Source: Brachypterus glaber
Lineage: Eukaryota > Arthropoda > Insecta > Coleoptera > Kateretidae
Length of the DNA stretch: 64,000 nt
Direction: 5' to 3'
Assembly (NCBI GenBank): GCA_958510825.1
Contig: OY294044.1
Span: forward strand, 107,298,893-107,362,892
Part shown: positions 984-61,075 of the stretch, piece after piece
Layout: the number at the start of each line of letters is the position of its first letter
Numbering within the stretch: position 1 is the first letter of the stretch
The notes under the pieces: generated by a model
Databases searched by the model: none
What the model saw: the letters and a program-made list of their open reading frames with translations, nothing else
Told to the model about the DNA's origin: nothing
Made by a program: the position numbers and the translations under genes

Positions 984-3900
984 CTAAAAGAAAATAGTAA
1001 TGAGTTGCAAAAAGTAGTTATCTTAATTTTTTTTCTATTTTGCGACTTTTATAAGCTCATAATCACACGCATTTTGAGTGTTCTTATAGGCCCATAAGAG
1101 GTCTCTACTTTTTTCTGTTGGGTTGGCAATATACAAAAGCCTATCTCTTGACGTTTTGCGTGCAAATGTTAATGTCGATTTAAAGTTTAATTTTTTACAA
1201 AATTTTGTGTTTGGGTTATTTTTTACCGTAATAAAATTGTGGACTGGTTAATTGCAGTGAAAAAAGAAGAGATGACTGTAAAATATATTAAAATATCATT
1301 TGTTCTTAGAATTTTAAACTTAGTGTAAACTGTAATGCCAACCCAAAACAAAAATTCCTAAATCAGTCAGCAATTAAATGTAAGTTTTTTTAATTTTAGA
1401 GCAAAATATAAAAAATTGTACAAAGCACTCGTTTCATAACACGTTTTTAGAGCACTAGTACTTTAGAAAACTCGCCGCAAGCGGCTTGTTTTCTAAACTT
1501 GTACTCGTGCGCTAAAAACGAATGTTATGAAACTAGTACTTTAATATACTATTATATTGACCGTTATCAAATACCAAACGATCATTATTGAATAAATTCT
1601 GATTTTTTTTATTGGTTGCTAAGTAAACAAGCTTTGACAACGGTGACAATAGTTTATATATAATCTGGTTGGACTTTTTTTTCTGGTTGCTGCAATCAGA
1701 ACCTGGTAAGGGCAGCAACAAAACAAACAAAAATAATTAAAAATCTGGTAAACACAAAAATTTGTCTTGTTGATCTTATAAACCAGAATTCTGGTTGCAG
1801 AACCAGAAAAGTTGTAATTACTAATTTTACTATTGATCTGACCCAACCAGATTTCAGAAAGAAAGGTACCAACAAATTTGTGCTTTTTCCTTAGGGAACG
1901 TTCAAGTATTACGTAACGCAAATTGTACCAAAATTCATACACTTTATACCTCGGTTCTCGCGTTATTCAAGGCTGTAGACATTTCATATTTTGGCTACCC
2001 CCCCTAACACACCCCCTATTAGGGGGGTAGCCAAAATATGAAATCTCTATAATCTATGATAACGCGAGAACCGGGGTATGAAGTGTATGAATATTGGTAC
2101 AATTTGCGTTGAACGTTCCCTTATTTAGAATTCTTACTCAGGAAAAAAATGTTGCCTTTGTGCAAATTCCTTCTTCCTGCTGATCCACTGGTTCCTTAAA
2201 TTTTTCAAATAATCATTTAATGCCCCACCAGGGATATACTCGACAATCATCCAATTGGGCTGGTCTTTTGTACAACAAGCTAATAGTTTTACTATGTTTT
2301 TGTGGTCGCCAACTTTTTTTAATATGTTGATTTCAGCCTTAAAGTTTTCTACTTCTTCTTCTGGGATTCCGTCTACAAAAAATACAAATAAATAAAAAAG
2401 GTATAAAAAAATTAAATAAAGAACCTGGAACACATATAGGGGGGTTCCTGGGCCTCAGAAAAACTGCCTCAAATTTTGATATTTTGTAATTTCGGGGGTA
2501 AACATTAAATTAGGAAAATTGCAGCCAAATTAAATAACCAGTTTCGGAGAAGAACGCTTTTAAAAATCTAATTTTATGACAGATTTTTTGACGTATATTA
2601 AGGTTATTTTTTACTGACGTAAATATTAACTTAATTAGCAGTTTTAAGTTTATTATACTCTATTAATTAAAGAACAGGCAAGATAAATATTATATAAAAG
2701 GCTTTATTATCATTTACTTGTGTTTCTATAAAAATTTTAAAACTTTGGAAAACTTCCACATGCTGGCATTTTCCACGTGTTTGCCAATTATCTGCATATT
2801 TTCTGTTAGAATTTTGCTTGATTAAGTTGAAACATGGTTTGGTACATCGACAAATATTTTATAATTATATATTTTAGATTTTATTGATATATTTTTTCAA
2901 AACAATATCTGATGGTTGACAAATCTCTCATGATATTTTCATATGCAAAACATATTATTAAGATTGCCTAGCAACAACTGAATTCATTAGTGAACCCTTT
3001 ATAGTAATATTTATTAAAAGTTGTTGCTAGGCAATCTCAATAATATATTTTACCTATGAAAATATGATGACAGATTTGTCAAGCCTCAGACGTATTTTTG
3101 GAAAAATATATCAATAAAATCTAAAATATATAATTATAAAATATTTGTCGATGTACCAAACCATGTTTCAACATAATCAAGCAAAATTCTAACAGAAAAT
3201 ATGCAGATAATTAGCTAACACGTGGAAAATGCCAGCATGTGGAAGTTTCACAAAGTTTTAAAATTTTTATAGAAACACATGTATGTAAATGATAATAAAG
3301 CCTTTTATGTAATATTTATCTTGCCTGTTCTTTATTTAATAGAGTATAATAAACTTAAAACTGCTAATTAAGTTAATATTTACGTAAGTAAAAAATAACC
3401 TTAATATACGTCCAAAAAATCTGTCATAAAATTAGATTTTTAAAAGCGTTTTTGTCCGAAACTGGTCATTTAATTTGGCTGCAATTTTCCTAATTTAATG
3501 TTTACCCCCGAAATTACAAAATATCAAAATTTGAGGCAGTTTGACTGGGGCCCAGGAACCCCCCTATATGTGTGCCAGGTTCTTTGAAAAAATAACGCAC
3601 ATCGCCGGATTTGTATGGAATTTCTATGCCCTTGGGAATATACTGTACTGATGAGAACAAATTTCCGTCGAAACAACGCGTCGCGGCGCTGCGTACAATT
3701 TTCAAAGTCCAAACGATTGTGACTATGTTTGTAAGATAAAGCCTTGCTGTTGACCTTCAACTCTATTTGTCCAATATGGGCATATCCACAGGCTCGCATA
3801 ATGCGATGCCGTGATTGGCTTGAAGTGCATGTATCTTGTAAGCCAATCACGTTACCGCATTCTTTAGTACTATATTGTTATGCGAGCTTGTGGATATGCC

Positions 3901-6900
3901 TTGTATCGTCAAATAAATTTTTGAAAACAATAATTTTTCTTCGGTTGCTTACTTTTTGGTTGCTTGATGGCAACAGTCTGAAATGAAGATTTACCATCCA
4001 ATCCAAATAACTTTCCTTTATACACTTCACCAAATGCCCCCTTTCCAATATAATTTTTTTCAATTATTATTTTATTCCGTGGAATTTCGTATTTGTCAGA
4101 ATTCTAAAAAAAATTAAAAATATAGTTTTTTTTAACATATTTCGTTTCATGTTCAACATCAAACAAAATAAAGTAACAGGTTATAACTTTCAACACATTT
4201 TTGTAACAACTGTTAACTATAATATATTGCTAATTTATACAGATTATCCATGCGTTTAGTATACACTTTAAAATAATTTTTATTCTCTTATGGCAACTGC
4301 CCAAGTGATGGCCGTAATCTCGAATGAACTGGGGACCAATCGTTCTGCGCTTTAGTTGAGTAAAATATATGCAGGAGTGTGCATTTTAAGTGTATACTAA
4401 ATTAATAAATTATCTGTATATATTTTCTCACAGACAGCTACCATTGCATCATCTAAGAAATATTTCTTAATTAATCTTATAAAGCCCTATAAGATTTTTT
4501 CACCAAAATTGACATGAATGAAGAAGAAGTAAAAAAAAGTGACACAGAGCCCCTCCCTATAGGGAAAGGGTTAAAAAAATAGAAAAAGTGGTAAATTAAT
4601 TCTACAACAGTTTCCAAAACTTAAATTGTAACTTTAAATAAAGATAAATAAAATACAATATTTACCAATATGAATTCCAGAGGCGTGTACGTAACGTTTA
4701 TTTCTTCATTTTTCAAACTAAAAACAATAAATTATCAAATTATACCATGTGCGTGCAAAAGTCTACTCCCACAAACTTTTGCACTGCTAAATATATTAAC
4801 GTAAATAACATAAAGATTTTTTTTATACGTGACCCTGCACTCTCACTTACGAACTTCTTTTTTTTTGTCGGATTATTACGTAAAAAAGTTGTTTTCATAA
4901 AAATCCATTTTTTTTTTAATTTGACACACTAACTGAGGTTCTTTGTGCAGGGTCACATAGTTGATATTTTTAGGGGCTACAAATAGATGGGCGTAGCTCC
5001 CTTACGACGCATTTTTAGACATATGTTTATGGGAGCTTTTTGTCATATTTTCTGATGTAGAATCACCCCTTAAAATTTCGGACCGTATTTCAAATACACC
5101 GTGTATATAGAGGTTTTTAAGGTTGCTGAAATTGAATCTTATAATATTTTTTTTTTAATTTTACCCCCTGAGTGGTGGGGGAGTTTTTGTTAAGTGTATT
5201 TAATTAAACTTTAATAGTCATTTTTTGACCAAAAATGTTGATATTGTTGTCAGTCTTTTAAGAAAAAATATGTTATTTAATGGAACTAGGGAACCCCGTG
5301 GCTATCAAAAAACCGAGTTTTATTGAAAAAAATGATATACCCAGTTTTAAAGAACTCCATATTGGTTATTAATTATTTAATAATAAATTGTTTCATATTT
5401 TTTGTAAGAAAATTACTAAGCTAAAAATAATTCTGTATAAAGACAACTAGATTTAAAATTAATACCAAAATAAAAAATGACATGTTCTGTCAAAAATTGA
5501 CAAATGATACATGGTTGCACTTAGATTTTAATTCTGAATCATAAATTATGATTCATATTATGTAAAGATATGCAGGGTTTAAAAATCAAATGTTGAACTA
5601 ATTTCTGCCAAAACCGGAAGCGAAACAAAAAAAAAATAAATCTGCCATTTTATAGTCAATGTAAAATGATATAAATCACCAAAGTTTCGTTTTTATTGAA
5701 TGAAAATTAATCTTAATTTTAGGGGTGGACATAAATAAAACTCACCCGTATGCCTAACTACATAATCTATTTTTAAAATTATTTTATTTCTTCAAGCGTA
5801 CTAAAATGTTCATTTTTTATAACTGAACACACTAGTTAGAACTGATCTATTTTTTACAGTAAAAAAATGAGTTCATTGTTGTACGCCGTAAAAAAAAAGT
5901 TAGTTAGCAAAACCACCACTGGCGACAGCACTCTTTGACTTTGATGACAGCCATACTTCAAACTTGTTTGTTTATTATGTAAACAGGTGGTTTACTCGAG
6001 ATTCTGTGCAAAAACCTTGTGTGAAATTGATTAAAAATGATTGAAGAATAATATATGGTTTATACACCTACAAATCTCTCCGAAATTGCAAATGCTACAT
6101 TAGACAAGTTACCATCGAAATCGCGAAAAGTGTACGATTTAGCCTACGAAAAAAATTTAAAATGAGCTAAGGAAGGTTTAAGTTTATTTCGAAAGGATTT
6201 TATTGGCCTATTTTAATAAAAAAACATTAACACAAACTTTATTACTGAATAAATTAAATTCAAAAATTAATATTCAAAAAAAATATATAGGATGCTTGAA
6301 GAAAAAATAGTATGTTTCACTCAGAGGAAAAGTGCTTTTTTTACTCGTCTGTAGTTTTTACGTCTGGGTTACATTTTCTTTCATCTCCGTAATAGCCCCC
6401 GTCCGTTACACGTTACCCTATTAAGTCAACCATTATCCACTAGAATCTGGCCCTACTGAACTGAATATATGTATTAAAATACGACTTTCCTGTGTTTACT
6501 TTGGCGAAGCCGAACCTACCCCCGACTGAGCCTCAGGTACACGGAAGCCCTGCCTTCCTGGGTATCTATTCTTGGGCTCGAGAGAACGTGAACAATTTTC
6601 GTAGGAAGGGAACTGATCACATCATATCAAAGTTCCCCAAAGTTAAAAAATGCTATTCTTGAAGAGCAGGGAGCGTGATGGGATCTCTGCAGCCGGCTGC
6701 AGCGTTGCCAATTATTTTAGCGGATTTTAACCAATCAGATTATGCGACACGTGTTTGCGTGCGCAGGCTGTCATTATTTTCATTATTTGTAAAAAAGTAA
6801 AAAAAGTTGCTGGGGTTTAAATTTTTTTTTAATTAATATATAGAAGTATAATATATTATTAGTAAGAAATGACTGAAAATAAAACCAGAAAAAGATCTAA

Positions 6901-9900
6901 ATATAATAATAATAATAAACGAGAATTTTTGTATTTCGGTATAGTTTTTTATTGAAAAACATATAGATTTCTGCGGCAGAAATCTATATGTTTTTCAATA
7001 AAAAACTATACCGAAATACAAAAATTCTCGTTTATTCTTATATACGGTATACAAAGTCAAAAAATCTTTCTTTAGAAAAAGATCTGCTCCAACTAGCAGT
7101 CAGCAAAAAAATCCTTCTAAATTTTCACCATTTGGTCTTCCGCATCTTGCAGATCTCCCAAAAGGGCAACAGCCCCCACAATTTCCAAATCATCCATCGT
7201 TATATTATTATTATCATAATATGTATAATAATTTATAAATATAAAAAATCTTTTATTAATTACGATTAACTATTATAAAACAAAACGGTATTCAAATTAA
7301 CAACACAAAACCAAAGCAAAAATAGGGTTATGTTCGAATGCGCGCGACTAACTTATATGTCAAAATTTCCGTGAACGACCGCTTCTCACGATCCCGAGTA
7401 GTAGAAGTAAAGTTCCTCAATTTTCGTGCGATGTGAAGTTCAAGAATAAGTAGTTTTGCGTTTCGAGAGAAAGAATATGCAACCCACACTACCTTTCTCC
7501 CGGGAATCCGTTCTCTCGAGCCCGAGAATACATACCCTGGCGCCCTGCAAAAAGTGTACTTCTGCATCCGCTTCGCGTCGTCCGTAAATTCTGCAGACTA
7601 GTAAAAAAAACTTCGCTTTTCCTCTTAGTAAAGCAATATACTATTTTTTATTTGCGTTTTTATTATTTATTTATTTAATACAATATGAATTATACTTTCG
7701 TTACTTTTTAAATATTATCATATACCTTGAAGAAACTAAATTAAATTGTTTGATATTTACAAATTTAAAAAATCTATATAAAACATTTTACTATTCCTTA
7801 AAACGACTTTTGTTTGATTAACGCAGTCGTCCCTCCGAAGTGACTGATCAATTTCGTGCTTTTTAGCACTCTTCAGAGCCACATATCGGTAGTAGGGACA
7901 ACTACGAAAATCAAATCCTTTCCATATATCTCTATATAGAGTTTAAAAATCGTTGTAAGGAAAAGCAAAAACAGCTAGCGACAGTCCAAAAAAGGAAGCA
8001 GTTATTGGTTTCAAGAACCTATTGCACGCTGTCGATAGGGGGCAGATTAATCAATGCCACGGTGGATATGTGGCTCTGAAGAGTGCTAAAAAGCACGAAA
8101 TCGATCAGTCACTTCGGAGGGACGACTGCGTTAATCAAACAAAAGCCGTTTTAAGGAATAGTAAAATGTTTTATATAGATTTTTTAAATTTGTAAATATC
8201 AAACAATTTAATTTAGTTTATTAATTCAGATACCACTGTAAAAGGTGACCTCCTAGCGTTTAGGATTCAATTGGCGGCAATGTCCACCGTGGCATTGATT
8301 AATCTGCCCCCTATCGACAGCGTGCAATAGGTTCTTGAAACCAATAACTGCTTCCTTTTTTGGACTGTCGATAGGTTTATCCAGTCTCTGCTTTTAGCAG
8401 TAGATGTCGCTAGCTGTTTTTGCTTTTCCTTACAACGATTTTTAAACTCTATATAGAGATATATGGAAAGGATTTGATTTTCGTAGTTGTCCCTACTACC
8501 GATATGTGGCTCTGAAGAGTGCTAAAAAGCACGAAATCGATCAGTCACTTCGGAGGGACGACTGCGTTAATCAAACAAAAGTCGTTTTAAGGAATAGTAA
8601 AATGTTTTATATAGATTTTTTAAATTTGTAAATATCAAACAATTTAATTTAGTTTATTAATTCAGATACCACTGTAAAAGGTGACCTCCTAGCGTTTAGG
8701 ATTCAATTGGCGGCAATGTCCACCGTGGCATTGATTAATCTGCCCCCTATCGACAGCGTGCAATAGGTTCTTGAAACCAATAACTGCTTCCTTTTTTGGA
8801 CTGTCGATAGGTTTATCCAGTCTCTGCTTTTAGCAGTAGATGTCGCTAGCTGTTTTTGCTTTTCCTTACAACGATTTTTAAACTCTATATAGAGATATAT
8901 GGAAAGGATTTGATTTTCGTAGTTGTCCCTACTACCGATATGTGGCTCTGAAGAGTGCTAAAAAGCACGAAATCGATCAGTCACTTCGGAGGGACGACTG
9001 CGTTAATCAAACAAAAGTCGTTTTAAGGAATAGTAAAATGTTTTATATAGATTTTTTAAATTTGTAAATATCAAACAATTTAATTTAGTTTATTAATTCA
9101 GATACCACTGTAAAAGGTGACCTCCTAGCGTTTAGGATTCAATTGGCGGCAATGTCCACCGTGGCATTGATTAATCTGCCCCCTATCGACAGCGTGCAAT
9201 AGGTTCTTGAAACCAATAACTGCTTCCTTTTTTGGACTGTCGATAGGTTTATCCAGTCTCTGCTTTTAGCAGTAGATGTCGCTAGCTGTTTTTGCTTTTC
9301 CTTACAACGATTTTTAAACTCTATATAGAGATATATGGAAAGGATTTGATTTTCGTAGTTGTCCCTACTACCGATATGTGGCTCTGAAGAGTGCTAAAAA
9401 GCACGAAATCGATCAGTCACTTCGCGGGACGACTGCGTTAATCAAACAAAAGTCGTTTTAAGGAATAGTAAAATGTTTTATATAGATTTTTTAAATTTGT
9501 AAATATCAAACAATTTAATTTAGTTTATTAATTCAGATACCACTGTAAAAGGTGACCTCCTAGCGTTTAGGATTCAATTGGCGGCAATGTCCACCGTGGC
9601 ATTGATTAATCTGCCCCCTATCGACAGCGTGCAATAGGTTCTTGAAACCAATAACTGCTTCCTTTTTTGGACTGTCGATAGGTTTATCCAGTCTCTGCTT
9701 TTAGCAGTAGATGTCGCTAGCTGTTTTTGCTTTTCCTTACAACGATTTTTAAACTCTATATAGAGATATATGGAAAGGATTTGATTTTCGTAGTTGTCCC
9801 TACTACCGATATGTGGCTCTGAAGAGTGCTAAAAAGCACGAAATCGATCAGTCACTTCGGAGGGACGACTGCGTTAATCAAACAAAAGTCGTTTTAAGGA

Positions 9901-12900
9901 ATAGTAAAATGTATTATATATACCTTGAAGGTTTGTATTAATCAAAATCTTACAGGGAGAAGGGGGGTCAAAAATCCTTAAAATATGTGTGACGTAATTA
10001 GTGCACGGCCCATTACGAGAAATATTATGTATAAGTGGGTAAAAAAATATATTAAATATAAGGGGGTTAAAACTATAAAATTACTTACCCTACAGGTCCA
10101 GAAGCAAAAGTCACAATTTGTGGAACATCTCTCGTTTTGCAAATATTGCAAATAGTTGGAATGTATTTTTTAACTTTCACTAAACCAATACTTTTACTGT
10201 TATAAATAATATAAATTATTATTATTGTTATTATAAATAACATTATAAAATAAAATATTATCCGTGAAGGGGGCCCTGGATCAACTAAAAATAATAATTT
10301 AATTATTTTCATTATTTTTAAGTTCCTTCCCAGATAGCACAGGTTTATATAATGGATATCCCCAGAATATCCGGTATGGGATTTTCGATATCCCCAGGAT
10401 ATACGATTTCGTCTATAGTTTTCCGTAGGACATTCTACAAATACTTTGTTACTAAACGGGAAGCCGAGCAACTTCCAAACCGTGTATCTCAAGGATATTC
10501 CGAAGGTATGCCCTGAGGATATTGTACGTCAGTCCTAATTATGTACACCTGCCCCGACAAAAGTGGCTATCAAATAGTATTCCTTTTATTATCTTTTTTT
10601 GTGAAATATTGCTATTAGCAGCTTGAACATAGGTGCAAGTTATTTAAATTGAATCAAAGAACTTTTACCTCAAGAAGAAACATAATGAAATCTACCGTAT
10701 GCTTTGTTTGAAGCGTGAACCAACTACGGTGAGGGGCTGGTGGGGAGTGACTATTGTTTACACTTAGTACGCGTAAAGAGAGAGAAAGAATGTGTAAACT
10801 CACAGTCTAATGTCGTAAAATGACTGACAGGGGTACATTGTTGCCGATTGGAAACATATACTTTGGATATTTTATTGTAAATTTTAAGAAACATTAGTTC
10901 TGTATGACTTTTATATGAACTAGTAGTTTAATTTTAATAGATTTAAATATACTATATTATTAAACATAATTATAGTATACACAAGTTTTTTACATTTTTA
11001 ATTTAAGTATAATGATTTGAATTCATGATAAGGTGGAAACTACGCAACATCGCTACTAGGTATCCTGAAAGTCGACTAGCGACATCTACATTTTACACCA
11101 CAAAGCTGTATCGCGTTTCTGTTAGTAAATAAACAAAAAAAAAAGATGACACCTTCATAAACATTGGTCTGAAATTACTTCTTAAGGTAAAAGTTCTTTG
11201 AATTGAATCTAATAGTTGCACAAACAAATAAAAGCAATACTATTTGATAGCCACTTTTGTCGGGGACATTTGTACATAATTAATAACTTACTTATTTACG
11301 ATATATATTTCCTTTTTCCCTCAGCGAGGGGTGATACATACGAAATTGACCAACAGAGGAACACACAATATAATTAAAGTCGCGAAAAACACGGTAAATT
11401 AAAAATAATGAAGGAAAAGCCATCGTAGGATATCCCAGGGACATCCGAAAGGACATCCACGGGACATCCCCTCGGGACGTCCCTGGGATGTACGAAGGAC
11501 ATACCGTATATCCTTAGGATATACGGGAAGTATATCCTTAGCACATACCTTTCGGGATATCATTGGGATATACGACTAATATCCCCGAACATGCGACATT
11601 GAGAGTATATTGAGAGGATATCCGGGGATATTGTGTGCTATATGGGTTATTGTCCCTATTTTAATAAATTCATACTTACTGTATATTTTTTTAGTGTCAA
11701 CATATTCGCATTCATATTTATTTAAAAAATGTACTGACAAAAAGTAGTATTCATCCTTAACCAAATGTTTTAAATTTAAAGTATATTTTTCCGTATGATT
11801 GTTATTTGTTATATGATGGATTTGTTGCACCAAAGGCCTATTTTGGATGTCCCTAAAATAACATAGTGTCTCAAAATATGTGTTAAAAGTAAGTTATTAT
11901 AAAAAAATTACTTTCATTTTTCCATATCCAGCATATGGATACGTTGTTGCCACATTTATCGGTTCATATCTAACTATACATTTTTTTCGAAAAAAAAAAA
12001 CTTTGGGGTTTAATCTTTCGATTTTTTTCTCCAAAACTTTGTCCTTTTTCGAAAAAATGTTTTTTTACATGAGTGTAAAATGTTTTTTTACATGAGTGTA
12101 AAATATTTACTTACATTACTACAAATTCAATGTGTCTTAGAAAACTATCTTCACTGTCCCAAAAAATATCAAATACGTCAAAATTATTAGTGTCTTGGAT
12201 TACTTTGGTTAAACTGTAAGGCGAACTATTTGTAGAACATTTACAGTTTTCTTCTACACATTCTAAAAATAAAGATACATACATATTATTTTTTCTACGA
12301 TTTAATAGAAAAGTTAACATTTCTGCAAAAACAAATGACGTTTTCAGACCGAAAAATAACCTATTTCTTAGCATTTTACTTTTCTGCTCGTTGCCATGTC
12401 AGCAAGCGCAAAATTAAATTTTGCGCTCTGAGTGTAGGCAACCGGTATGTCGATCGTAAAACAGCTGTCAGTTATATACGAGATGTGGTACGACATTTGT
12501 TTAACATAGAATTCAAAATTATTAGTATCTTGGATTAATTTGGTTAAACTGTAAGGCGAACTATTTGTAGAACATTTACAGTTTTCTTCTACACATTCTA
12601 AAAATAAATATACATACATATTATTTTTTCTACGATTTGATAGAAAAGTTAACATTTCTGCAAAAACAAATGACGTTTTCAGACCGAAAAATTATCTATT
12701 TCTTAGCATTTTACTTTTCTGCTCGTTACCATGACAGCAAGCGCAAAATTAAATTTTGCGCTCTGAGTGTAGGCAACCGGTATGTCGATCGTAAAACAGC
12801 TGTCAGTTATATACGAGATGTGGTACGACATTTGTTTAACATAGAATTCAAAATTATTAGTATCTTGGATTAATTTGGTTAAACTGTAAGGCGAACTATT

Positions 12901-15900
12901 TGTAGAACATTTACAGTTTTCTTCTACACATTCTAAAAATAAATATACATACATATTATTTTTTCTACGATTTGATAGAAAAGTTAACATTTCTGAAAAA
13001 ACAAATGACGTTTTCAGACCGAAAAATTATCTATTTCTTAGCATTTTACTTTTCTGCTCGTTACCATGACAGCAAGCGCAAAATTGAATTTTGCGCTCTG
13101 AGTGTAGGCAACCGGTATGTCGATCGTAAAACAGCTGTCAGTTATATACGAGATGTGGTACGACATTTGTTTAACATAGAATTCAAAATTATTAGTATCT
13201 TGGATTAATTTGGTTAAACTGTAAGGCGAACTATTTGTAGAACATTTACAGTTTTCTTCTACACATTCTAAAAATAAATATACATACATATTATTTTTTC
13301 TACGATTTGATAGAAAAGTTAACATTTCTGCAAAAACAAATGACGTTTTCAGACCAAAAAATTATCTATTTCTTAGCATTTTACTTTTCTGCTCGTTACC
13401 ATGACAGCAAGCGCAAAATTGAATTTTGCGCTCTGAGTGTAGGCAACCGGTATGTCGATCGTAAAACAGCTGTCAGTTATATACGAGATGTGGTACGACA
13501 TTTGTTTAACATAGAATTCAAAATTATTAGTATCTTGGATTAATTTGGTTAAACTGTAAGGCGAACTATTTGTAGAACATTTACAGTTTTCTTCTACACA
13601 TTCTAAAAATAAATATACATACATATTATTTTTTCTACGATTTGATAGAAAAGTTAACATTTCTGCAAAAACAAATGACGTTTTCAGACCGAAAAATTAT
13701 CTATTTCTTAGCATTTTACTTTTCTGCTCGTTACCATGACAGCAAGCGCAAAATTAAATTTTGCGCTCTGAGTGTAGGCAACCGGTATGTCGATCGTAAA
13801 ACAGCTGTCAGTTATATACGAGATGTGGTACGACATTTGTTTAACATAGAATTCAAAATTATTAGTATCTTGGATTAATTTGGTTAAACTGTAAGGCGAA
13901 CTATTTGTAGAACATTTACAGTTTTCTTCTACACATTCTAAAAATAAATATACATACATATTATTTTTTCTACGATTTGATAGAAAAGTTAACATTTCTG
14001 CAAAAACAAATGACGTTTTCAGACCTGTAAGCAACCGGTATGTCGATCGTAAAACAGCTGTCAGTTATATACGACATGTGGTACGCCATTTTTTTAATAT
14101 AGAATTCTTATTTATTTACGAAAGAATTATGGAGAGTGACAGTGATGAGGATTTTACTTCTAAACCACCAGATTTGCAAAAAAATGTAAGTGCTGTGCCC
14201 TTGTAAAGTTATGAACTTACTGGCTAAAAATTTATTTATTTATTTATTTTAGATCGTAGAAAAAATGGCTCGATCAGCAAATTCGACGCTTCACCAGAAA
14301 TCACTCATATTGCGCTCTTAATACAAAAACTACTACTACAACTACTTGTAAGTGTAAAGTAGCACTTTTCCGCATGCTTTTTTGTTTGGAAAGTTGTACT
14401 TTTCCGCACTAGTGTGCAAAAGTATTCCGCACTAGTGTGCAAAAGTATTACTGATATAAGTAAGATTCTGAACCTCACCCCCTCACCCCCAGCCACCCCA
14501 ACTTTAAAATCTTAAATGGAAACCCCTATTCGTAATACAACATCTAAAAGAGTGTAAAAATACTTTTTCGTGATGCAAAGTCAAATCATATTTAAAATTA
14601 CTTTTAATTTTTGGTTGGCAAAATACAAAGTTTTTTGTATTTGTGTTTAGAACTGGATACTTTCTACCTTAAATAGCCTCAACGACTAAACCATTCCCAA
14701 TCAACCCTACTTATACATTTTAGAAGTCCGGCATATGCCGAAATATTGTCACAAATGCGTGGTTCTTCGTGTCCTGATTAATTTATAACACACGTTCTTA
14801 CCACTTTAGGTTACAGAGATGCCAGAGTTACTTTGCCCAATGGGCACTGCCCACTTTGGGACTACCCAACTATCGACTCTACGCTATTCTGATAATCTAT
14901 TTTTCTCATTCTCATTCTCTTTTGATCTAAGATCTAAGTATTTATACCAAGATGTTTTACAAACAAACCTAGTTTATTTAATTTCAATGCTAGTTTACAA
15001 TAACACTAGAATGCTTGATGTGCAAAACATCTGTATGCAATACAAGGTACTAATTTATAAATAATAACTAAAATTATAAAGAACTTTCACTTTCGGGTTT
15101 AGACCGTGTTAATGGATTTTAACTTTCCGACGTTTCGTCTCTTACTACTAGAGACATCTTCAGGGATTAATCTGAAACTAAGTTTCGAATCAACTTGTGT
15201 CACTATTTATGACGAGTTGTGGTTATTCACCCGTGACGAGCTTTTTCCTATCAAAGACTTCCATATTGCAGGTAAGTGGTAACCAGTGTCCCGATTGATA
15301 TTGTTAGGATGCTTGATGATTTCTATCGATTCCTGTATCTTCCTTGGCATTTTTCTGTTTTCTGTTAATATTTGTTTTGTTTCAGACAAATTGATTTTAT
15401 GACCTGTTTCATGTACATGTTCGGCTACTGCCGATAAGGAAATTTGTTTCTTTCTTATATTGCGCTCATGCTCTTGAAGTCTTGTAGAAATTTTTCTCTT
15501 AGTTTCACCTATGTAAACCGTACCACAGGAGCAGTGTATTTTATATACGCCTTCTGAACTCAGGGGTATTTTGTCTTTTGTTGAAGTCAAACATTGACCT
15601 AATTTTGGGTTGGACCGAAATATAGGCTTAATATTTGACTTTTTCAAAAGTTTACCTATTTTATCCGTGATACCGCTTACATAGGGAAGTATAACTTGTG
15701 TCTGTCTGTCATTGTCACTATTGTCCTGTTGTTTGGGTCTGGGATTTCTGTATTTGTATATGGTCTTATTAATGTCTTTTTTGGTATAACCGTTCATCGT
15801 CAAGGCTTTGGTTAGTTTAAGGAGTTCTGTGTCTAGGGAATTCTTGTCTGAAATCATGAAAGCCCTATGAACAAGTGAATTAACTACCGAGCGTTTTTGA

Positions 15901-17105
15901 GAGGGATGGTGATGTGAAAATGCGTTTAGGTATCTGTCAGTGTGGGTTTTCTTCCTGTATACCGAGTGTCCTATTGAGCCATTTTCCGTTTTGTAAACCA
16001 AAACGTCCAAAAAGGGAAGTGATCCGTTGTTCTCAATTTCCATCGTAAACCGTATAGATTTATGTTGGAAATTGAGGTGATTTAGAAAACCTTGAAGGCT
16101 TTCCATGCCATGGGGCCAAATAGCATAGACATCGTCTACGTATCTGCGCCAAATTTTAGGTTTTAATGGAAATGACTCAATAGCTTTTTTCTCGAAGTAT
16201 TCCATGAAAGCATTGGCCGCAAGGGGTGATAATGGGGATCCCATTGCGGCGCCTGACACTTGTTCATAGAACTCTCCCTGTATCAGAAAATATGTAGATG
16301 TCAGACAAGCTTCAAATAATTTACATAACTTAGGGTCAAGATTTCCAGTTGTAAGTAGGTCTCGTATAATATTTATTGTATCGGGAACGGGAACGTTAGT
16401 AAATAGAGATTCTACGTCGAAACTAACCATTATGTCCGAGGGGTCCAGGGTCACTGTCGATAAGGTTTGTACAAAGTGTGTGGAATTTTTTACATAAGAC
16501 CTCGTTTTTCCAACTAACTGATTTAAGATTTGGGCAAAAAAATAACTAAAATTGTTTTATGAAATTTAGGTAAAGCCTGTATGGCTACCTAGCCAACTCT
16601 TGACAATATTTCCCAGATTAGAAAAGTTTCCTAGGAAACCCGCATTTCCAATAGTTTCTGATCAACAGTTGTATGCAAACGCGGTGCAACCTACAGGCAA
16701 CACATTTCCTACAATACGGTGGAGCTCGTTGTCTGCAACTTACCTTAAATAACATTTCCGCCGTGCGTTGTCCACAATAAATATACGCAAAAGATTTGCC
16801 GTCGGTTGCCCGTAGGTTGCACACAATACGTTGTCAGAAAATGTTTCCGCCAAGAGACAGCCAAATGGTGGCACCCACTTGACGGCGAAAAGCTCCAACA
16901 ATTTACCGGCAAACGGACGGATTCTGGTTATCTGGGTTGATAATAACTTACTTGGAATTTCGTACAAAAAATTCAGTTCCTTTGTCTTACAACATTCAAA
17001 CGAAATATTATATTTACAATTATGTTTTATTCTGATTGATTCTGAGGGATGCTCAATTCGTAGTGATGGAATTATTATGTATTGCTCCTAAAAATAATCA
17101 TCTTT

Positions 17106-20100: not shown

Positions 20101-23100
20101 ATTTAGACTTCCGTCTGAGGCTGATAGACTTACACGTGGCTCTTTAATTATGACTTATCGGATTTTACATGACCAGTTTAGTTTGGACTTACGTCAAATG
20201 TTTACTCTAAATGAGGATCGTCGTCTCCGTGGGCACAGTCTCAAGTTAAGACAAGAATTTGCCCGTTCCAGACCCAGAAGAAGCTTTTTAAATAATCGCA
20301 TATTTGACACTTGGAACTCTCTGCCAGAAAATGTAGTGAATGCGCCCTCTGTTACCGCCTTTAAAAACCGCTTGGACAATTTTTTGTTTAATATTGATGC
20401 ATAATTAGTATATCTTTTAGTCTCTGCTTTTTAAGCTAATTATATATTTTTTTATTTTTTGAGTTTAATAGGCCTAGCCTCAACTCTTATATTAATAATA
20501 ATAATAATAATAAATAATAATGTGGGTTTCTTGATTACTGAGAGCTGTTTTAAAAGCGACAGATACAGGGATTATGGGCTCTGGACCAACAGGTACAGAG
20601 CCTGAGCCTGCTCGTGCCAATCTATCAGCTTCTTCATTGCCTACATTTCCATTATGCCCCTTTACCCATGAGAGTGTAACAGTATTAGAAACTGCCGCTT
20701 CCTCCAGGGATTGGTGACATTCTAAAACTAGCTTTGAAGTAATTTTGAAAGACTTGATTGCTAGTATGGAAGCTTTGCTATCCGTAATAATAGTTATTCT
20801 TCTATTACTGATTTCCCTTTCAGAAATAGTTCTCTCAGCATTTGTTATGCCTATGACCTCTGCCTGAAAGCCCGAGGCATGCTTGCCAAGGGAAATACTT
20901 ATTTCTAACTCTAGATCAGAAAACTCCTGCACCTGATCCTTCAGTTGTCTTTGAACCATCAGTGTACATGACAATATCAGGTACGCTGTCAGTTTCTTCT
21001 TTAGTGGAAGCATAAGCTTGGTATGATCTATTAAAGATATACCTGGGAGCAACTAGATCGGTCTGAGATTCAAGAATGGGAGCTTGTGACACAAACCGTT
21101 CAAGAATAGACTCATGTCCAGTACGCGTTCTTCTTGCATTCCACGTACTATTTGCTTTCAGCCTAAGAGCTGTCCTTGCGGCCTCACCCTCAACAAAAAT
21201 ATTAAGGGGAGCATAGTCTCTAAAGCTGCAGTTGGAGTTGATCGCATTGCACCGGTTATACTCATAAGAGCTAGTCTTTAAATATGATTTAGTTGCGTTC
21301 TTGCTGTAGTCAGTTGGGTTCTGGGCCACCATACAACTGAGCCATATGTTAGCATAGGCCTTATGATAGCGGTGTACAGCCAAAGGGTGATCCTGGGAGA
21401 CAAACCCCAAGATCTGCCCAGTCCCGGACACCTAAAAAATTGACATTTTTGAAATTCAAATATTTCGAAAACTAATTAATGGATTTGACTCATTCTTTTT
21501 TTGTTTTGAAGCTTAAACATTTTCTACTTTTGGTTGTTTTAAGAATGATTACTTTTTTTTTTCGTATTAACAGCAACAAATAATGTACTACTATATTTCT
21601 TACCCCATCTTCTAGGACTTGCATGGTACGCCACTGCAACTGTTTATCAAATTATTAAAGTCTTTCTTATTGCCGCTGTTTTAATGAATATTTTCTTTTT
21701 TATTTTTTTACTTTTCTCCTTCTGGTTTAGGAGATATCAGGATTTTCCTGAAAGTTGTAATTTTGTCAGTCAACTCAACTAAATCAGCAGAGTTTTTTAT
21801 TTAAAGCTCATGTCTTTTACTTCTTCTTCTACGCTCATGTATTTTACTTCTTCTTTTACAGTTTCTTCATCCCGGGGCAACTTTTTATTGCCGTCTGACG
21901 GAGGCTTAACGGTGATTTCGCAGAACTGCCGCCGGACGGAGTGACCCTATTTTTTCTTCTACTCAAGTTTTTCAAACCCAATTTATGTTTTTGATAAACT
22001 TGATTAGAAGAAAAACGTAACTCGGTTAAGCTTCAAATTTAAAGCACAGCATCAATCAAACTCATGTAGTACTTTTTAAGTTAACTGAAAAAATGACAAC
22101 TTCCAGGAAAATCCTGATATCTCCTAAACCAGAAGTAAAAATGTAAAAAAATAAAAAAGAAAATATTCATTAGAACTGCGGCAATAAGAACGACTTTTAT
22201 AATTTGATAAACAGTTGCAGTGGCGTACCATGCAAGTCCTAGAAGATGGGGTAAAAAACATAGTTGTACATTATTTGTTGCTGTTAATACGAAAAATAAA
22301 AATTTAATCATTCTTAAAACAAACAAAAGTAGAGAATCTATATAAAACATTTTACTATTCCTTAAAACGACTTTTGTTTGATTAACGCAGTCGTCCCTCC
22401 GAAGTGACTGATCGATTTCGTGCTTTTTAGCACTCTTCAGAGCCACATATCGGTAGTAGGGACAACTACGAAAATCAAATCCTTTCCATATATCTCTATA
22501 TAGAGTTTAAAACTCGTTGTAAGGAAAAGTAAAAACAGCTAGCGACATCTACTGCTAAAAGCAGAGACTGGATAAACCTATCGACAGTCCAAAAAAGGAA
22601 GCAGTTATTGGTTTCAAGAACCTATTGCACGCTGTCGATAGGGGGCAGATTAATCAATGCCACGGTGGACATTGCCGCCAATTGAATCCTAAACGCTAGG
22701 AGGTCACCTTTTACAGTGGTATCTGAATTAATAAACTAAATTAAATTGTTTGATATTTACAAATTTAAAAAATCTATATAAAACATTTTACTATTCCTTA
22801 AAACGACTTTTGTTTGATTAACGCAGTTTTAAGGAATAGTAAAATGTTTTATATAGATTTTTTAAATTTGTAAATATCAAACAATTTAATTTAGTTTAAA
22901 AGTAGAGAATGTTTAAGCTTCAAAACAAAAAAGAATCAGTCAAATCCATTAATTAGTTTTCGAAATATTTGAATTTAAAAAATGTGAATTTTTTAGGTGT
23001 CCGGAATTTAATGTGCGACAGTGTATTTAATTATAATTACCATTGCTACTGTAATCCCACGATATATTTAAACGTAAATAGTCATTTTTATCGTTGAATG

Positions 23101-26100: not shown

Positions 26101-29100
26101 AGAACCTCTGACGTCATAGGTAGAGAAATAATATTTCTACCAATGAAAAGAACAGTAATAAAGATGTGATTTTAGGCTGGTGGTGAAAAAAATTAATTAT
26201 AAAGGTCATGTCCTATTTTTACCAACTATAAAATATAAACGAATATACAGTGCGTGCATTAAGTCTGGAATCACCCGAGTAACTTTTTAGTTACAATTAA
26301 AATACAAAAATCCTCGGACAGGTCGATTTATATTTTTAATTCTGCAAATTTTGGTCTAAATAAAGTTATCAAAATTGGCACCCCCCTGCACCCTCACCCC
26401 CCAACTTTTTTTTTCAAATAGCAACCTACCCCTTGTGATACATCATTGGAAAGGTAATTTAATAAGCTTTACAACAGTGTATGATAAAGCCTAATTTGTT
26501 AAAGGGTCTATGAAAAAACGCATGTTTTATTTAAACATTGTGTGAAATATTACGCATATGGTAATTGTTGCCCTATTTCCTACTTGGCATCTTCCTGAGA
26601 ATCTAAATAAGGTTGTTTTAAACTTATTGTAATATTTTATACCCTGTTGAAAAATGCAATTTTTTTTTCTTTTTATTGACCAATTTTATGTTTACTATTA
26701 AATCGATTTTAATTCCGTTTTTTTACTGTCCACTGTCAAAGAGCTGAAGGACATCAATTTGAACATTTATAGTGAACTAAAGTTATACTTTACATGTCTT
26801 TATAATAAACTAAATTGTGCATTTTATCATTAGCCCTTTACCAAATTAGGCTTTATTATACACCGTTGGAAAGCTTATTAAATTACCTTTCCAACGAAGT
26901 GTCACAAGGGGTAGGTTGCTATTTGAAAAAAAAAAAAAGTTGGGGGGTGAGGGTGCAAGGGGGTGCAAATTTTAATAACTTTTATGTTCGCTCTAAAAGT
27001 TATATTTTCAGCCTTATTTAAATATATTTTTTCACTACTAGCTTTAGAACATACCATTATTTATCATGTTTTCAGACTGTGAATTCAATTTTATTCACCT
27101 ATAGCAGTAAGAATTTTTCCTACGATCCTCTATGGAAATGACATTTAGAACAGTCTTTTGTTCTTTAGAAAAAGCCTCATATCGTACTAGTTTGATATTT
27201 TTATATCACACTAGTGTGATATTTATATATGGAGGTTTGCCTAATTTTATTTAGATATTTACCTAGTAGATTCTACGAATTTTATTCACCTTGTTTTATT
27301 AACCATTTTCCACCTTTCACCACAGCATTTTATATCTTTTAAGTGTTTTAATCCAAATATTTCTGTTTTTCATGTCAAAAATAAAAACTATATAACGTTA
27401 CTATTTTGACCATTACTGTCTAGTCTAGACAGTCTAGATCTTATAAAAATTACTTAATTTTTTATTTAGTTACCTTACATTACATAAAAAACATCAAAAT
27501 ACACAGTATTCTTCTTATGAAATGTAAAACAGTACAATTTTACTGTCTTATATGGCAGCATAACCACAGAAATCTAATTTGTATGCTATTTATAATTATT
27601 TTGTGCTTTGCTTTTCTTAAAAATTATTAAAAATTAAAAAATTTTAAAATAAGAAACTTATATCTGCTTTACAAAATTTAAGGGTAAAAAGTACCAAAAA
27701 TAACGATATACCTTTTCATCTCTCAAATGTAAATGAAATAAATAATTTTTTTTCACAAATTCTTCAACAAAAACCTAATTGCCAAAATAAAATTAAATAT
27801 TATAAAAATAAAAAACTTAACAACAATTGTAATGTTAATTTCAATTTAAGTACAGAGGAGAAGGTAAATAGTTATTTAAACGATATTAAAACTCATGCTG
27901 TGGGGATTGATGGCATTAATGCAAAAATGTTAAAAATTTGTTCGCCGTTTATTGATAAGTACATTTTACACATCATAAACACTTGTATTGAAAGACGTTA
28001 TTTTCCAAAAATGTGGAAATGTGCTATAGGTAAACCTTTGGCAAAAAAAACTAACCCTGAAAATTTTTCTGAACTGCGAATAATAAGTATTTTACCTACA
28101 ATGTCCAAGATCTTCGAAAAAATTATTTTTGAGCAAATACTGAATCATTGCAATTTACACAATGTCATTCCCCCTAACCAATGTGGTTTTAGGAAAGGTT
28201 ACAGCACATCAACTGCGCTTGTATCTGTAACTGATGATATTATAAATAACTGTGATAAAGAGTTTATTACTGCATTGATTCTACTTGACTTCAGTAAGGC
28301 ATTTGACACCATCGATCCTGGTCTTCTGTTGGCCAAATTAGAATACATCGGTTTTATTTTTTTTGGTAACAAGCAATCAATAAAATTTCTTGAGAATAAC
28401 ATGAGTATTGAGATCGATGGTGTTAGACTGCCTTCAACCAATGTCGCAAAAAATTTAGGGTTATTCGTGGATAATGAATTAAGATTTGTAGATCACGTTA
28501 ATAGTTTAATAAAAAAATCAATGTCAAGTTTAAAACTGCTCTATTCCAACAGACACATTCTTACCGAACATCTAAAGAAAAGTCTTTCAGAATCTCTTGT
28601 ACTTTCCCATTTCAATTATTGCGATTTTATTTATGGTCCTTGTCTTGATGAAAACAGTAAATTTAAAATTCAAAAAGTGCAAAATAGTTGTTGTAGGTTT
28701 ATCAAGGGGGTCAACAGGTACAACCGTATGTCCCCTATAATAACACAGTTAAAATGGCTAAAAATGGAACAGAGGCGTAAGTTACATCTTTTAGTATTTA
28801 CTCACAAATCCTTACAAACGAACCCAGTACAAATTATTGCTAATAAATATGTTACTAGAAATCAAATTCATTCCATTAATACAAGAAATAATGTAAAACT
28901 TAATATGCCTACTTTCAGTAAAAGTTTTTTTAAACGATCTTTCAGTTATAATTCTATAAATGAATATAATAAGTTGCCTGAGTCATTTAAGTTGCTTAAA
29001 ATTAACCCATTTAAAACAAAAGTTCAGCAAATTCTTTTTGAAAATCAATAAGGTATTTTGTATTTTTAAATTTCTACAATCAATAGTCTTTTAAGTGTGT

Positions 29101-32100: not shown

Positions 32101-35100
32101 AAAACTGAGCAAAAAAGTATTATACACCAAAACACCTAAATTTAATATTAAAGGAGTAATAGCCTTTTAAAAAGTAACGTTTTCGGTGGCACAAAATGTT
32201 ACTTCCTCTTAATTGCATTTTTTTTTGATAACGGTTGCTCCTACAGTGTTACACTATATGATATTTTATATGTATTTTTACTCTAGAAATCTATATTTTT
32301 TACAACAAATCCAAAAAACATACACATAGAAAAGTTTGGGGCAAAAATGTTTTAAGCCTCATATATTTTGTCCGTCTGGGCACGCCTCTGGATAAATTAA
32401 AAAAATAAACTAACATAAACTTATTGCCCTTATTAATACTAGTATACATGCAAAAGCTCGCCGCTCTAGCTTAAACGGTACCCGAGTTATTAATTAAAAA
32501 CCTTATTTTTATTACAATTTTAAAGGGCCCTAGATCCCTTAGGGCTCATTTCCGGACCAACCTTTATAGGAACTTTTTTTATATTTTTGGATCTAGAATC
32601 ACCTCTTAAATTTTGGCATGCCAGTTATGGATCACCCTGTATATTTTCCAAAATTTAAAAAATTTTACTTAACTTTTATATTTTTAACTTAAGATAGGTG
32701 GACCCATAGATACGGCCCTGAATATAGCTATATCAGCTAACATTAGTGTTTGTTTTAATTATCTTAAACAAATTATAAAAATAATAATAATATATATTAT
32801 AATGTATTGTATTTAATTTGTCTGGATTTTTTCTGTTTTTGGTGGAATTATGCTTAGATTTAATGTAACTTTAATCAATTATCACGACAGTGTGCACGCC
32901 TAGTGAGACAAGCGCTCGACCAGAATTTAATATAGAGTAAGGGAACGTTCAAGTTTTACGTAACACTCCTAGGGGGGGGGTCATTTTGGAGTGTTACGCC
33001 CATGTTAATGGTATATTTTATTTAGCTTATGGCACGTACAAAATAATGAGTTTATAATAGTTATGTGTAGTATTATATAATAAGTATATTAGCAGGGCTT
33101 GATGAGAATTATAAGGCGATGTCCAGATTGGTTAACCATTGGATTGCAACAGGTGTAGCTGCTGCAAAATCCACAATGTCCCCAGAAAATAATCTAAGTG
33201 GGCAGTCGGTGGTTATGTGGCGAATGGTTTGCTCGGCTGCACCACAGCTGCATGACGGATCTGGTCTTAAACGCCATTTGTGAAGGCTATAGTTACATCT
33301 TCCTTGATTTGTTCGGACTCGGTTTAGTGAAGTCCATATTTTTCTCGGTAGGTTAAATCCTGGGGGTAGATTATTAGGGTCCAGGAAGGTATGCCATTCA
33401 GCTGGTGAGTGCAAGAGCCATTGGTTTGTCCATTGCCTAGATCCATTGAAACCTTCATCTGTGAGCTGCTTTGCGGTGACAATGGGAGGTCGCCTGGATT
33501 TCAGCCTTTTGAACTCGACGTTGTTTATGTCTTCGTGTATTGGGAGCATATCATTTTGGTTTATTTTCGTGTACTCGCGTAGCAGGTTGTTTTGTCTGCG
33601 AATATGTGGAGGTTGAATGTGACTCAATACAGGAAGCCAGTGCAGAGGAGTTGGTTTTAGAGTGCCAGAAATTATACGCATTGTATGATTTAGCGTGGTG
33701 TCCACTTTATGGATGTGGGCACTATTGAGCCAAGCAGATGAACAGTACTCAGCAGTAGTATACACAAGGCTTAGGGCTGAAGATCGCAAAGTCGGTGCAG
33801 TGGCTCCCCATGTTGTTCCTGCCAGCTTTTGAAGGATGTGGTTCCGTGTACGAAGCTTTGCTGCAGTGTTTGTTAAGTGGCGATTAAAGGAGAGGGTTCG
33901 GTCTTGGGTTACCCCAAGGTATTTGGGGAACGGGTTATGAGGAAGTATGTTGCCATTTAGAGTAACATTCAGTGTGGTGTTGGCTAGTCTGTTATTTAAG
34001 TGAAAGCAGCACGTTTCCGTTTTTGTGACGCTTGGTGTGAGGCGCCATTTGCGAAAAAAGGTGCTTAGCTTATTTAAATCTGTCGAGAGCTTCTCTTCTA
34101 TTACTTCTAAGGACTTGTGCTGGAAAGTGATACATATATCGTCGGCATAGGCAAATATTCTACCGGAGGTTTTGGGTAAATCGGCAACATAAAGGTTGAA
34201 CAGCAAGGGTGCTAACACGGATCCTTGGGGAAGTCCGTTATTAAGTATTCTGGATTTACTTATACCGTTGTTCATAATTACTTGAAATACACGGTTGGAA
34301 AGCATGTTATTAATCAAACTGGCCATTTTCTTACATTTTAAAGCTTTGAGCAGTTTATAGTGTAATGGTATAGGAAAATAGCGTTACAGGGGGGGGGGTC
34401 CAAAATGATCAAAATTTGCGTTACGTAATACTTGAACGTTCCCTAAGCTAAAACACTATAAGCCAAGCCGTAAAGATATGTAACGTAATATTTTCTAAAG
34501 GAGTTTTATGTTTATCGGACTTTTACCTCTACTTTTACAATTTTTTGAGAAGTTGCGCACCCTGTAACATTTTAATTTTTAATGAAAGTTTTTCAAAAAC
34601 ATTGGGTCCTTCCTCTCGCAGAAGTTGATTTTTCATGAACACTTAATAGGTTTGTTTTGATTCTCGAAAATCGCAGTTCTGAACTGATTCGAAATCGGCG
34701 CAGTTGCTACTGCGCAATGCTCAGTCACAACTGCGCTGATTCCGAATCAGTTCAGAACTGCTATTTTCGAGAATCAAAACAAACCTAATATTGATCGGAT
34801 ATTCCGTTATTGAATTACTTTCCGCACAAAATGGAAGGACACGGACTGGCGGACGAACAGTCGAGCAGAATTCAATAAAAAATATACTACCAAGTAAAAG
34901 AGCTTTCCCATTTTTCACCCCCGCGCGTAAAATGGATTTTTTTTATTATTAGATTCACTTTCAGCAACCATAAAAACCTTAGTATACCAATTTTCACGAA
35001 AACTACCCTCTGCCCCTTTGGGGGTGAAGTTAGAATTTTGTTATAATCAGATTCCCTTTCAACAACTTCAAAAACCCCATTATACCAATTTTCACGAAAA

Positions 35101-58100: not shown

Positions 58101-58989
58101 AAATTATCCCCAAACATGTATCTATCTATATACATACCTAAATATTATTGTATTTATCCTACTCTAAAGCAATTTAAAATACACGTGTTTTTCATAACTA
58201 ATTATATTTTTTTCAATTCTTTTTTTTTCACAACACAAAAGTAAATATTTTTCTCACTCAACGCACATTTTTTAAATCTTTTTATAGCCAAAATATTTTA
58301 TTTTTAACAGCGTAAATTCAAAATTACGAAAAAATAATTCGCGGCAATCTAATCATAAAGTGTAATCTCCATACTATTCAACTGTCGAATGTGTACTGAG
58401 ATGATGGTATGCTATATATTTTATTTTCAATAACGTAAATTAAACATTACAAAAACATTATTTAAGAAAATCTAGGTTAAATCCAGGTTAAAAAGTGTTT
58501 AACCGTTTATTAGCATTTGATAAATTATCCCCAAACATGTATCTATCTATATACATACCTAAATATTATTGTATTTATTCTACTCTAAAGCAATTTAAAA
58601 TACACGTGTTTTTCATAACTAATTATATTTTTTTCAGTTCTTTTTTTTTCACGACACAAAAGTAAATATTTTTCTCACTCAACGCACATTTTTTAAATCT
58701 TTTTATAGCCAAAATATTTTATTTTTAACAGCGTAAATTCGAAATTACGAAAACATAATTCGCGGCAATCTAATCATAAAGTGTAATCTCTATACTATTC
58801 AACTGTCGAATGTGTACTGAGATGATGGTATGTATTTAGTGTAGAAAATTGGTGTTTTTCCAACCAAAAATGTACCATGTTGTCGATTATAGACAGTAGG
58901 GTGCCCAGTCAAAATTAAATAATGGACTTTTTTAGGGTCCCATCCCCTAACTAAAATTAAATAAGGCAAAAACTCAAAACCTATTAATT

Positions 58990-60674: not shown

Positions 60675-61075
60675 ATGGAGATCTCTACAACTAGAATTAT
60701 GAAACAAAAGACGTCTACCCTATCTCTATCTCATTTGTGCTACACTTTCCAGCCAACCAAATAAATACTGTATTTGTTTTTCATACAACAAATACAGTAT
60801 TTATTTGGTTGGCCGGAAAGTGTAGCAGTGAGCTGCACGAACGAATATAGCTAATGTGAATCCGTAGAATAAGATAATTCTACTAAAATTTAGATGGCGC
60901 CAGTAATTTCTTTAATATAGTTACACTTTTCGCCCCTCCAAGTAAATATTGTATTTGTTCAACAAAGAACAAATACAGAATTTGTTTGGTTGGGTGGAAG
61001 TGGGAGTGTATGTATGTATTCTATCCTTTTTGGGTAGAACTTTTGTCCCCGTCTAATCTAACGGGAGAAATCTCC
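60675..61075. mobile_element. Hairpin MITE, copy 2
   Basis: About 400 bp nearly identical to 42945-43345, so one of the younger insertions. Confidence 0.8.

Follow-up and report, generated by a model that had tools for sequence, protein, structure and literature searches.

Which enzyme inserts animal retrozymes, and why would one of them carry a partial copy of its own repeat in inverted orientation? Both questions are raised by a locus of the beetle Brachypterus glaber (contig OY294044.1 of assembly GCA_958510825.1), examined here within a stretch of 64,000 nucleotides (the window). The original prediction described, at 7720-9930, a mobile retrozyme in which a 13-bp repeat flanks an inverted partial unit and direct 436-bp units. 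This layout was confirmed, with 4.3 direct units; the inverted partial unit, correctly listed there and left unexplained, now appears to be one of two reverse-transcription arms, the key feature of a Penelope-type insertion. Judged from the DNA sequence, the element is very probably a retrozyme without long terminal repeats (non-LTR) that was integrated by a reverse transcriptase-endonuclease of the Penelope-like element (PLE) type, with multimeric or circular RNA as template for two cDNAs, each started from one of the two strands of a single staggered cut.

Metazoan retrozymes have been described as tandem non-coding repeats of 150-450 bp with type I hammerheads, low GC content and target duplications longer than 4 bp, and insects are named as hosts without detail (Cervera and de la Pena 2020, PMC7229834). 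PLEs were proposed there as their mobilisers from shared ribozymes, tandem copies and co-occurrence, and reviews in Cells (2020) and Plants (2024) restate the proposal. In the literature consulted, the inserting enzyme is argued from co-occurrence; the insertion anatomy makes PLE mobilisation testable.

Layout of the window insertion

The 13-bp direct repeat ATATACCTTGAAG occurs twice within the whole window. Between its two copies lie two arms of opposite strand, and their outer ends fall at two points of the unit, here termed A and B (unit position 1 corresponds to window position 8501):

7720-7732, plus strand: left copy of the target-site duplication, ATATACCTTGAAG, by comparison with other insertions
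7733-8064, minus strand: inverted arm, a partial unit with its outer end at the B site (unit ~155) and its inner end at unit ~219
7824-7894, minus strand: hammerhead of the inverted arm (Rfam HH9, 25.2 bits)
8065-9917, plus strand: direct arm, 4.26 tandem 436-bp units with the outer end at the A site (unit ~113)
8067-8115, plus strand: first ribozyme copy, cut so that outer stem I lacks its 5' strand (25.3 bits)
8481-8567, plus strand: full hammerhead ribozyme, predicted cleavage after C8542 (AUC)
8604-8613, plus strand: GTTTTATATA, the A site of one of the units, with further occurrences of this word from 8168, 9040 and 9475
8643-8656, plus strand: TTTAATTTAGTTTA, the B site of one of the units, with further occurrences of this word from 8207, 9079 and 9514
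8930-9000, plus strand: hammerhead ribozyme (28.4 bits)
9366-9438, plus strand: hammerhead ribozyme with a 1-nt deletion and one substitution in stem I (29.7 bits)
9801-9871, plus strand: hammerhead ribozyme (28.4 bits)
9918-9930, plus strand: right copy of the target-site duplication, by comparison with other insertions

The B site lies 43 nt from the A site, and the A end of the direct arm overlaps the right duplication by ~3 bp. The direct units measure 436, 436, 435 and 436 bp, followed by a partial one, with 99% matches. The inverted arm (7733-8064) carries a 39-bp internal deletion (unit 302-340) and a C>T change in its ribozyme, both absent from the direct units.

A type I hammerhead with a palindromic stem III

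Six copies of the hammerhead are present: four in full direct units, one in the cut first copy and one in the inverted arm. The motif comprises an extended three-part stem I (12, 4 and 6 bp), CUGAAGA, a 4-bp stem II with a UAAAAA loop, GAAA and an AUC cleavage triplet. The type I fold first proposed, with its three-part stem I and stem II, was borne out: the fold of 8481-8567 reaches -40.7 kcal/mol (z -6.8), a value equalled by 0 of 200 shuffles. The covariance-model check that had been suggested was answered in part. Rfam HH9 is the best-matching model, with six matches in the retrozyme at 7733-9917 in a permissive local scan (E 1e-4 to 2.8e-3), yet their scores of 25.2-29.7 bits lie below the family's gathering score of 52, and an Rfam scan of the window at gathering thresholds returned no match.

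Stem III consists of one base pair closed by the palindrome UCGA, and AUCGAU is self-complementary. In the axolotl ribozyme HHR_Amex1, a one-bp stem III with a palindromic tetraloop likewise occurs, and dimers are needed for good cleavage (PMC7229834); the B. glaber ribozyme resembles it, with UCGA as tetraloop and dimer use as a prediction. Because of this short palindromic stem III, efficient cleavage probably needs two ribozymes together, as in axolotl. In folding models, the monomer minimum (-40.7) pairs part of the core, and the value with the core free is -38.4. When two strands share a 6-bp stem III and both cores are left free, the fold reaches -81.5, equal to two monomers (2 x -40.7), and the unconstrained two-strand fold, an inactive long duplex, lies slightly lower (-83.8). 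Ribozyme variation is not below that of the rest of the unit (3.9 vs 2.6 per kb), and there is therefore no sign of purifying selection on the ribozyme in the sampled set.

A dispersed and apparently young retrozyme family

The exact 31-nt ribozyme occurs 1,993 times in the 648-Mb assembly (1,031 forward, 962 reverse), and a reversed control 0 times. A search with the unit gave at least 165 matches among the best 40 of 857 candidates, which were the ones scored. In this best-scoring set (208 unit copies from 40 insertions), units differ from the reference by ~2.9 variants per kb, and the sampled copies therefore appear to be young. The unit has a GC content of 36.7%, a longest ATG-led frame of 16 codons and a longest stop-to-stop frame of 84. 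It thus has no long frame such as the reverse transcriptase with GIY-YIG of an autonomous PLE.

By content, the sequence evidence supports a mobile, non-LTR retrozyme of known kind with a type I hammerhead. Like the metazoan non-LTR retrozymes of PMC7229834, as far as that text describes them, it consists of short tandem non-coding repeats of low GC with type I hammerheads (here with a sub-gathering covariance score), in dispersed copies with target duplications longer than 4 bp. Its unit of 436 nt slightly exceeds the 170-400 nt given for metazoan retrozyme RNAs, and its layout differs from that of plant LTR retrozymes. The sub-threshold covariance matches, the fold, the genome-wide dispersal and the other insertion sites together uphold the mobile retrozyme reading.

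Most sampled insertions have two arms with one A end and one B end

Fifty-five insertions were dissected, 2 in the window and 53 fetched from the assembly. The first set of 41 combines 39 from the unit-search list, chosen for high identity, with the 2 of the window. The second set comprises 14 of the first 19 exact-ribozyme clusters on one contig (C1); four longer clusters and a pair at 3430615 were skipped. Outer arm ends cluster at unit ~113 (A) or ~156 (B). Two-armed insertions have a minus-strand arm on the left and a plus-strand arm on the right, and the sense of both therefore points outwards.

Across all 55, 44 insertions are two-armed with A and B ends, 1 is A/A, 8 are one-armed and 2 have a lost end. 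The first set holds 34 A/B insertions with L017 as the 35th, one A/A (L014, which was mis-split by the script and has two A ends on inspection), three one-armed with A and two one-armed with B. In the second set, all 9 insertions with both ends resolved are A/B, three are one-armed (L076, L078, L083) and two have a lost end (L084, L086). One A and one B end thus occur in 44 of the 45 two-armed insertions with both ends resolved, the end pattern expected of a PLE tail, and the combination of inverted and direct copies with a target duplication is that of a PLE-type insertion. The same polarity is seen among adjacent exact ribozymes no more than 1.5 kb apart (first 100 on C1): 28 pairs are minus-plus, 1 is plus-minus and 14 are on the same strand.

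L017 is interrupted by a 304-bp piece with inverted ends (3872-4175) that resembles a small DNA transposon. L079 and L084, counted separately, have 67 bp of right flank in common at 98.5% and are possibly one duplicated locus.

The second insertion in the window, at ~22335-22898 with its ribozyme on the minus strand, was absent from the original prediction and shows the same anatomy:

22325-22337, plus strand: left target-site duplication, AAAAGTAGAGAAT, overlapping the arm end
22335-22827, minus strand: A-ended arm with one ribozyme at 22388-22458 (28.4 bits)
22826-22898, plus strand: B-ended arm, 73 bp
22898-22910, plus strand: right target-site duplication

This copy and L038 are independent insertions into identical positions of two copies, ~93% alike, of another repeat; the two insertions have opposite polarity and different arm junctions.

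Target duplications and a weak site preference

In the first set, a duplication score of at least 8 was reached by 34 of 40 own flank pairs vs 0 of 320 mispaired flanks. Other insertions carry other duplications, so the 13-bp repeats of the window insertion are a target duplication, as originally proposed, and not part of the repeat. Counting L017 as two rows, the first set gives 42 rows with duplications of 12-13 bp in 24, 8-11 bp in 7 and 14-15 bp in 8, and none found in three (L016, L019 and one piece of L017). The second set has a duplication of at least 8 bp in 11 of 14, with none for L083, L084 and L086.

Target sites show a weak preference. GTTT occurs within the first 6 bases beyond the duplication in 21 of 68 flanks vs 1.7 expected, and when a site matrix is built from half of the 41 sites, the remaining half score higher than random (p 7e-12). 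A cut that leaves 3' overhangs of ~12 nt is suggested, because a duplication on both sides plus priming at both ends fits this geometry.

PLE-1, an autonomous element with the same kind of ends

The window also contains a copy of a second element, PLE-1:

15207-16556, minus strand: 5'-truncated, one-armed PLE-1 copy with a stop-to-stop frame of 449 codons (RVT_1, 4.4e-9)
15129-15163, minus strand: minimal hammerhead-like core downstream of the PLE-1 frame, labelled by pattern and not reported by Rfam

A 13-bp duplication lies at 15063-15075 and 16541-16553. PLE-1 aligns with protein P0034 at 47% identity over 440 aa, and PF01541 (GIY-YIG) of P0034 falls in the aligned C-terminus; the PF01541 profile gave no match on PLE-1 itself. 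Among the 120 listed of its 1,249 relatives, most are RVT_1 proteins that lack a name or characterisation, and those with a name come from insects and other animals. The top identity is 56-57%, and PF01541 is found in 7 of these 120. PLE-1 is therefore labelled here a PLE from its RVT_1/GIY-YIG-like domains, hammerhead-like core and tail. It is abundant: the best 94 of 5,663 candidates in a protein search of the assembly are 97-100% identical, 90 of the 94 lack a stop within the match, and the assembly contains 4,583 exact copies of the 34-nt end motif, vs 0 for the control.

PLE-1 ends mirror those of the retrozyme. Downstream of the core, 8 of 16 copies stop at an A end (TTCTTTATA), 7 at a B end 28-36 nt beyond it and 1 elsewhere (L052). 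Twenty regions were picked as close minus-plus end pairs: A and B ends with duplications of 9-16 bp were found in 18, two B ends without a duplication in L106, and L105 was unusable. L048 has B and A ends and its duplication was recovered, and the pair L045/L072 has one A and one B end with a common 12-mer (read by eye). Scored with the matrix of retrozyme target sites, 17 PLE-1 sites do better than random ones (p 3e-6). L052/L066 combines one unusual internal end with one B end and a 13-bp duplication.

Two 7-bp helices (CCAUUAA/UUAAUGG and CACGGUC/GGCCGUG), ordered as in a pseudoknot, can form across the A start in the 3' end of PLE-1 (L042-L057); the best helix across A was reached in 19 of 500 simple shuffles. 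Homology between the 3' regions of the retrozyme and PLE-1 was considered and rejected, as their alignment gave a heavily gapped match only.

Arms and the RNA template

Of 75 arms, 43 are longer than one unit; the 75 include the piece of L014 that was mis-split. The same variant is found again within an insertion in 21 pairs vs 0.83 expected, 10 of them across arms. A private variant is present in every covering unit of both arms in L030 (4/4) and L024 (3/3). In L031, it is present in 4 of 5 units, and the fifth, in the excluded end margin, carries the same variant. The pattern of L030 and L024 is as would be expected from a monomer circle, and a homogeneous source array could give the same. 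Other variants occupy part of the units (L003 350C>A 2/4, L037 355T>C 2/4, L020 273G>A 2/5). In the one-armed L016 and L019, the inner ends (unit 46 and 47) come within 3-4 nt of where cleavage is predicted (42/43), as if cleaved linear RNA had been copied to its end.

A proposed two-priming model and its alternatives

The arms, their ends, the duplications, the site preference and the recurrence of the pattern in PLE-1 are read directly from the DNA. The anatomy agrees with what is described for PLEs. Penelopes of Adineta vaga have direct and inverted pseudo-LTRs (pLTRs), a tail at one of them and duplications (Arkhipova 2013, PMC3846280). The protein of the Anolis Poseidon element PAc cuts and extends both strands, starting at two internal RNA sites that delimit the tail, a property called unique to PLEs (Frangieh 2024, PMC11167929). 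The retrozyme is like these elements, as presented in the two sources, in its direct and inverted copies, its duplications and its two internal starts near a hammerhead; its tail is 43 nt vs ~30-40 bp in PLEs. Unlike PLEs, it has no coding frame, its repeat unit equals the ribozyme monomer and its stem I is extended. Two-armed A/B anatomy is not described for retrozymes in the text consulted of PMC7229834, and no retrozyme with PLE end structure was found in a search by titles and abstract starts that covered neither subscription papers nor preprints.

In the proposed mechanism, hammerheads, probably acting in pairs, would cleave array transcripts into 436-nt RNAs able to close into circles. 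A PLE-type protein with a GIY-YIG endonuclease, for which PLE-1 is the candidate source family, would make a staggered cut of ~12 nt, somewhat favouring sites that resemble AAAC-N12-GTTT. Reverse transcription of retrozyme RNA would then be primed by both 3' ends, one at A and one at B, two sites that lie downstream of the ribozyme at a distance of 43 nt from each other. Each polymerase could circle the unit several times, and the two cDNAs would meet and be joined. The product would have two tandem arms that point outwards, one ending at A and the other at B, and a target duplication. We give an even chance to the broader proposal that animal retrozymes are partners of PLEs in the manner of short interspersed elements (SINEs), in which one PLE dimer cuts both strands ~12 nt apart and makes one cDNA per fixed RNA site on ribozyme-made circles, explaining the PLE inverted repeat and one-end tail. 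The 1,993 exact ribozymes, the fixed ends and an abundant PLE of the same signature in one genome provide a defined RNA, DNA targets and a candidate protein, and two primings would be a simple way to account for the unusual layout of PLEs.

Several observations weigh against this model. High identity was the criterion for the first set, and closely spaced minus-plus ends were that for the PLE-1 regions. Exceptions exist, namely L014 (A/A) and, in PLE-1, L106 (B/B, no duplication) and L052 (other internal end). The GTTT preference is weak, with both sides in 4 of 35 sites and one side in 13 of 35, and the GTT flank preference is still weaker in PLE-1. Among 14 further PLE-1 copies with a 5' piece, a duplication was seen in 2 (L048, L052), and short pieces may miss the far end. 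The A and B sequences of the retrozyme and PLE-1 are hardly alike, and a shared RNA structure across A was rejected, the retrozyme helix not exceeding shuffles (162/500). Finally, variant and non-variant units are mixed in L003, L012, L020, L037, L038 and L040. Not every array was therefore copied from a single monomer circle; mixed arrays would need template switching, dimeric circles, later mutation or linear multimers.

This last point bears on the nature of the template. The same PLE-type insertion could use a long unprocessed multimeric transcript, with ribozyme and circles not needed, a possibility to which we give something over one chance in three. The mixed arrays L003, L037 and L020 favour it, as does work on the Anolis PLE, in which ribozyme mutants left insertion in vitro unchanged and unprocessed RNA was regarded as the main substrate (PMC11167929). 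The private variants found throughout L030, L024 and L031, as from one monomer circle, argue against it, though a homogeneous source array could also give them. It is very unlikely that the inverted arm arose by fold-back self-priming of one cDNA or of antisense RNA instead of two primings. Fold-back was suggested for rotifer PLEs in 2013, where head-to-head is the commonest inverted order and palindromes are often found at the junction (PMC3846280). Such priming would join arms at neighbouring unit positions, whereas the two arms meet within 20 nt of unit position in 0 of 34 junctions (3.1 expected at random). Neither the 39-bp deletion nor the substitution of the window's inverted arm is found in the other arm, and the pairing of one A with one B end in 44 of 45 resolved insertions points the same way. 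Target-primed insertion by a long interspersed element (LINE), with occasional twin priming, is compatible with duplications of 12-15 bp. It would leave one variable end, and both outer ends of two-armed copies lie at fixed unit points; we consider this route, together with LTR-type integration, highly improbable. Duplications of plant LTR retrozymes are of 4 bp (PMC7229834), which speaks against the latter. The tandem, nearly identical units could also suggest a DNA satellite that owes its spread to unequal crossing-over or to circular DNA, with the hammerhead as a passenger, a view that the dispersed insertions, target duplications, two fixed ends and variable junctions leave with next to no credibility.

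Within the PLE-type model, the enzyme may come from another, undetected PLE family instead of PLE-1, which is possible, at roughly one chance in three. The differing A and B sequences of the two elements favour such a source. The protein searches scored the best 94 of 5,663 and the best 68 of 5,231 candidates, and minor PLE families would be hidden because only the best candidates were scored. Against it, the 120 PLE-1 relatives used as queries match only the window PLE-1 and PLE-1-flanking pieces (in the window and sampled loci), and PLE-1 itself is abundant, 97-100% alike among the scored copies, with like ends, duplications and sites. A PLE with a retrozyme tail was sought in nine regions picked by eye (tail word, no exact ribozyme nearby), all of which proved to be retrozyme sequence with no PLE protein match.

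Other features of the window

The placement of the retrozyme in a kinase-gene intron was not established. A kinase exon lies at 2134-2454 on the minus strand (Pfam), and 3909-4103, minus strand, was read by eye as the kinase glycine-loop exon; the retrozyme is upstream of both, and no exon was located beyond it.

Other arrays of the window (periods 335, 421, 398 and 97) were considered as cases of the same anatomy and rejected. A minus-strand match is absent in three of them, and the 398-bp array, with 75-79% self-complementarity, was not accepted as having the insertion anatomy of the retrozyme. In these four arrays, edge duplications never score above 0 and the CTGANGA...GAAA core was not found. 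The 335-bp array (12178-14025) has 5.5 units at 99% and the 421-bp array (55178-58832) 8.7 units at 97%, both without a hammerhead core or inverted arm.

Sub-threshold matches to microRNA models on both strands at 599-704, 42999-43107 and 60729-60837 are probably hairpin-forming repeats. Other reverse transcriptase frames (RVT_1) lie at 27648-29051 on the plus strand and 33109-34383 on the minus strand.

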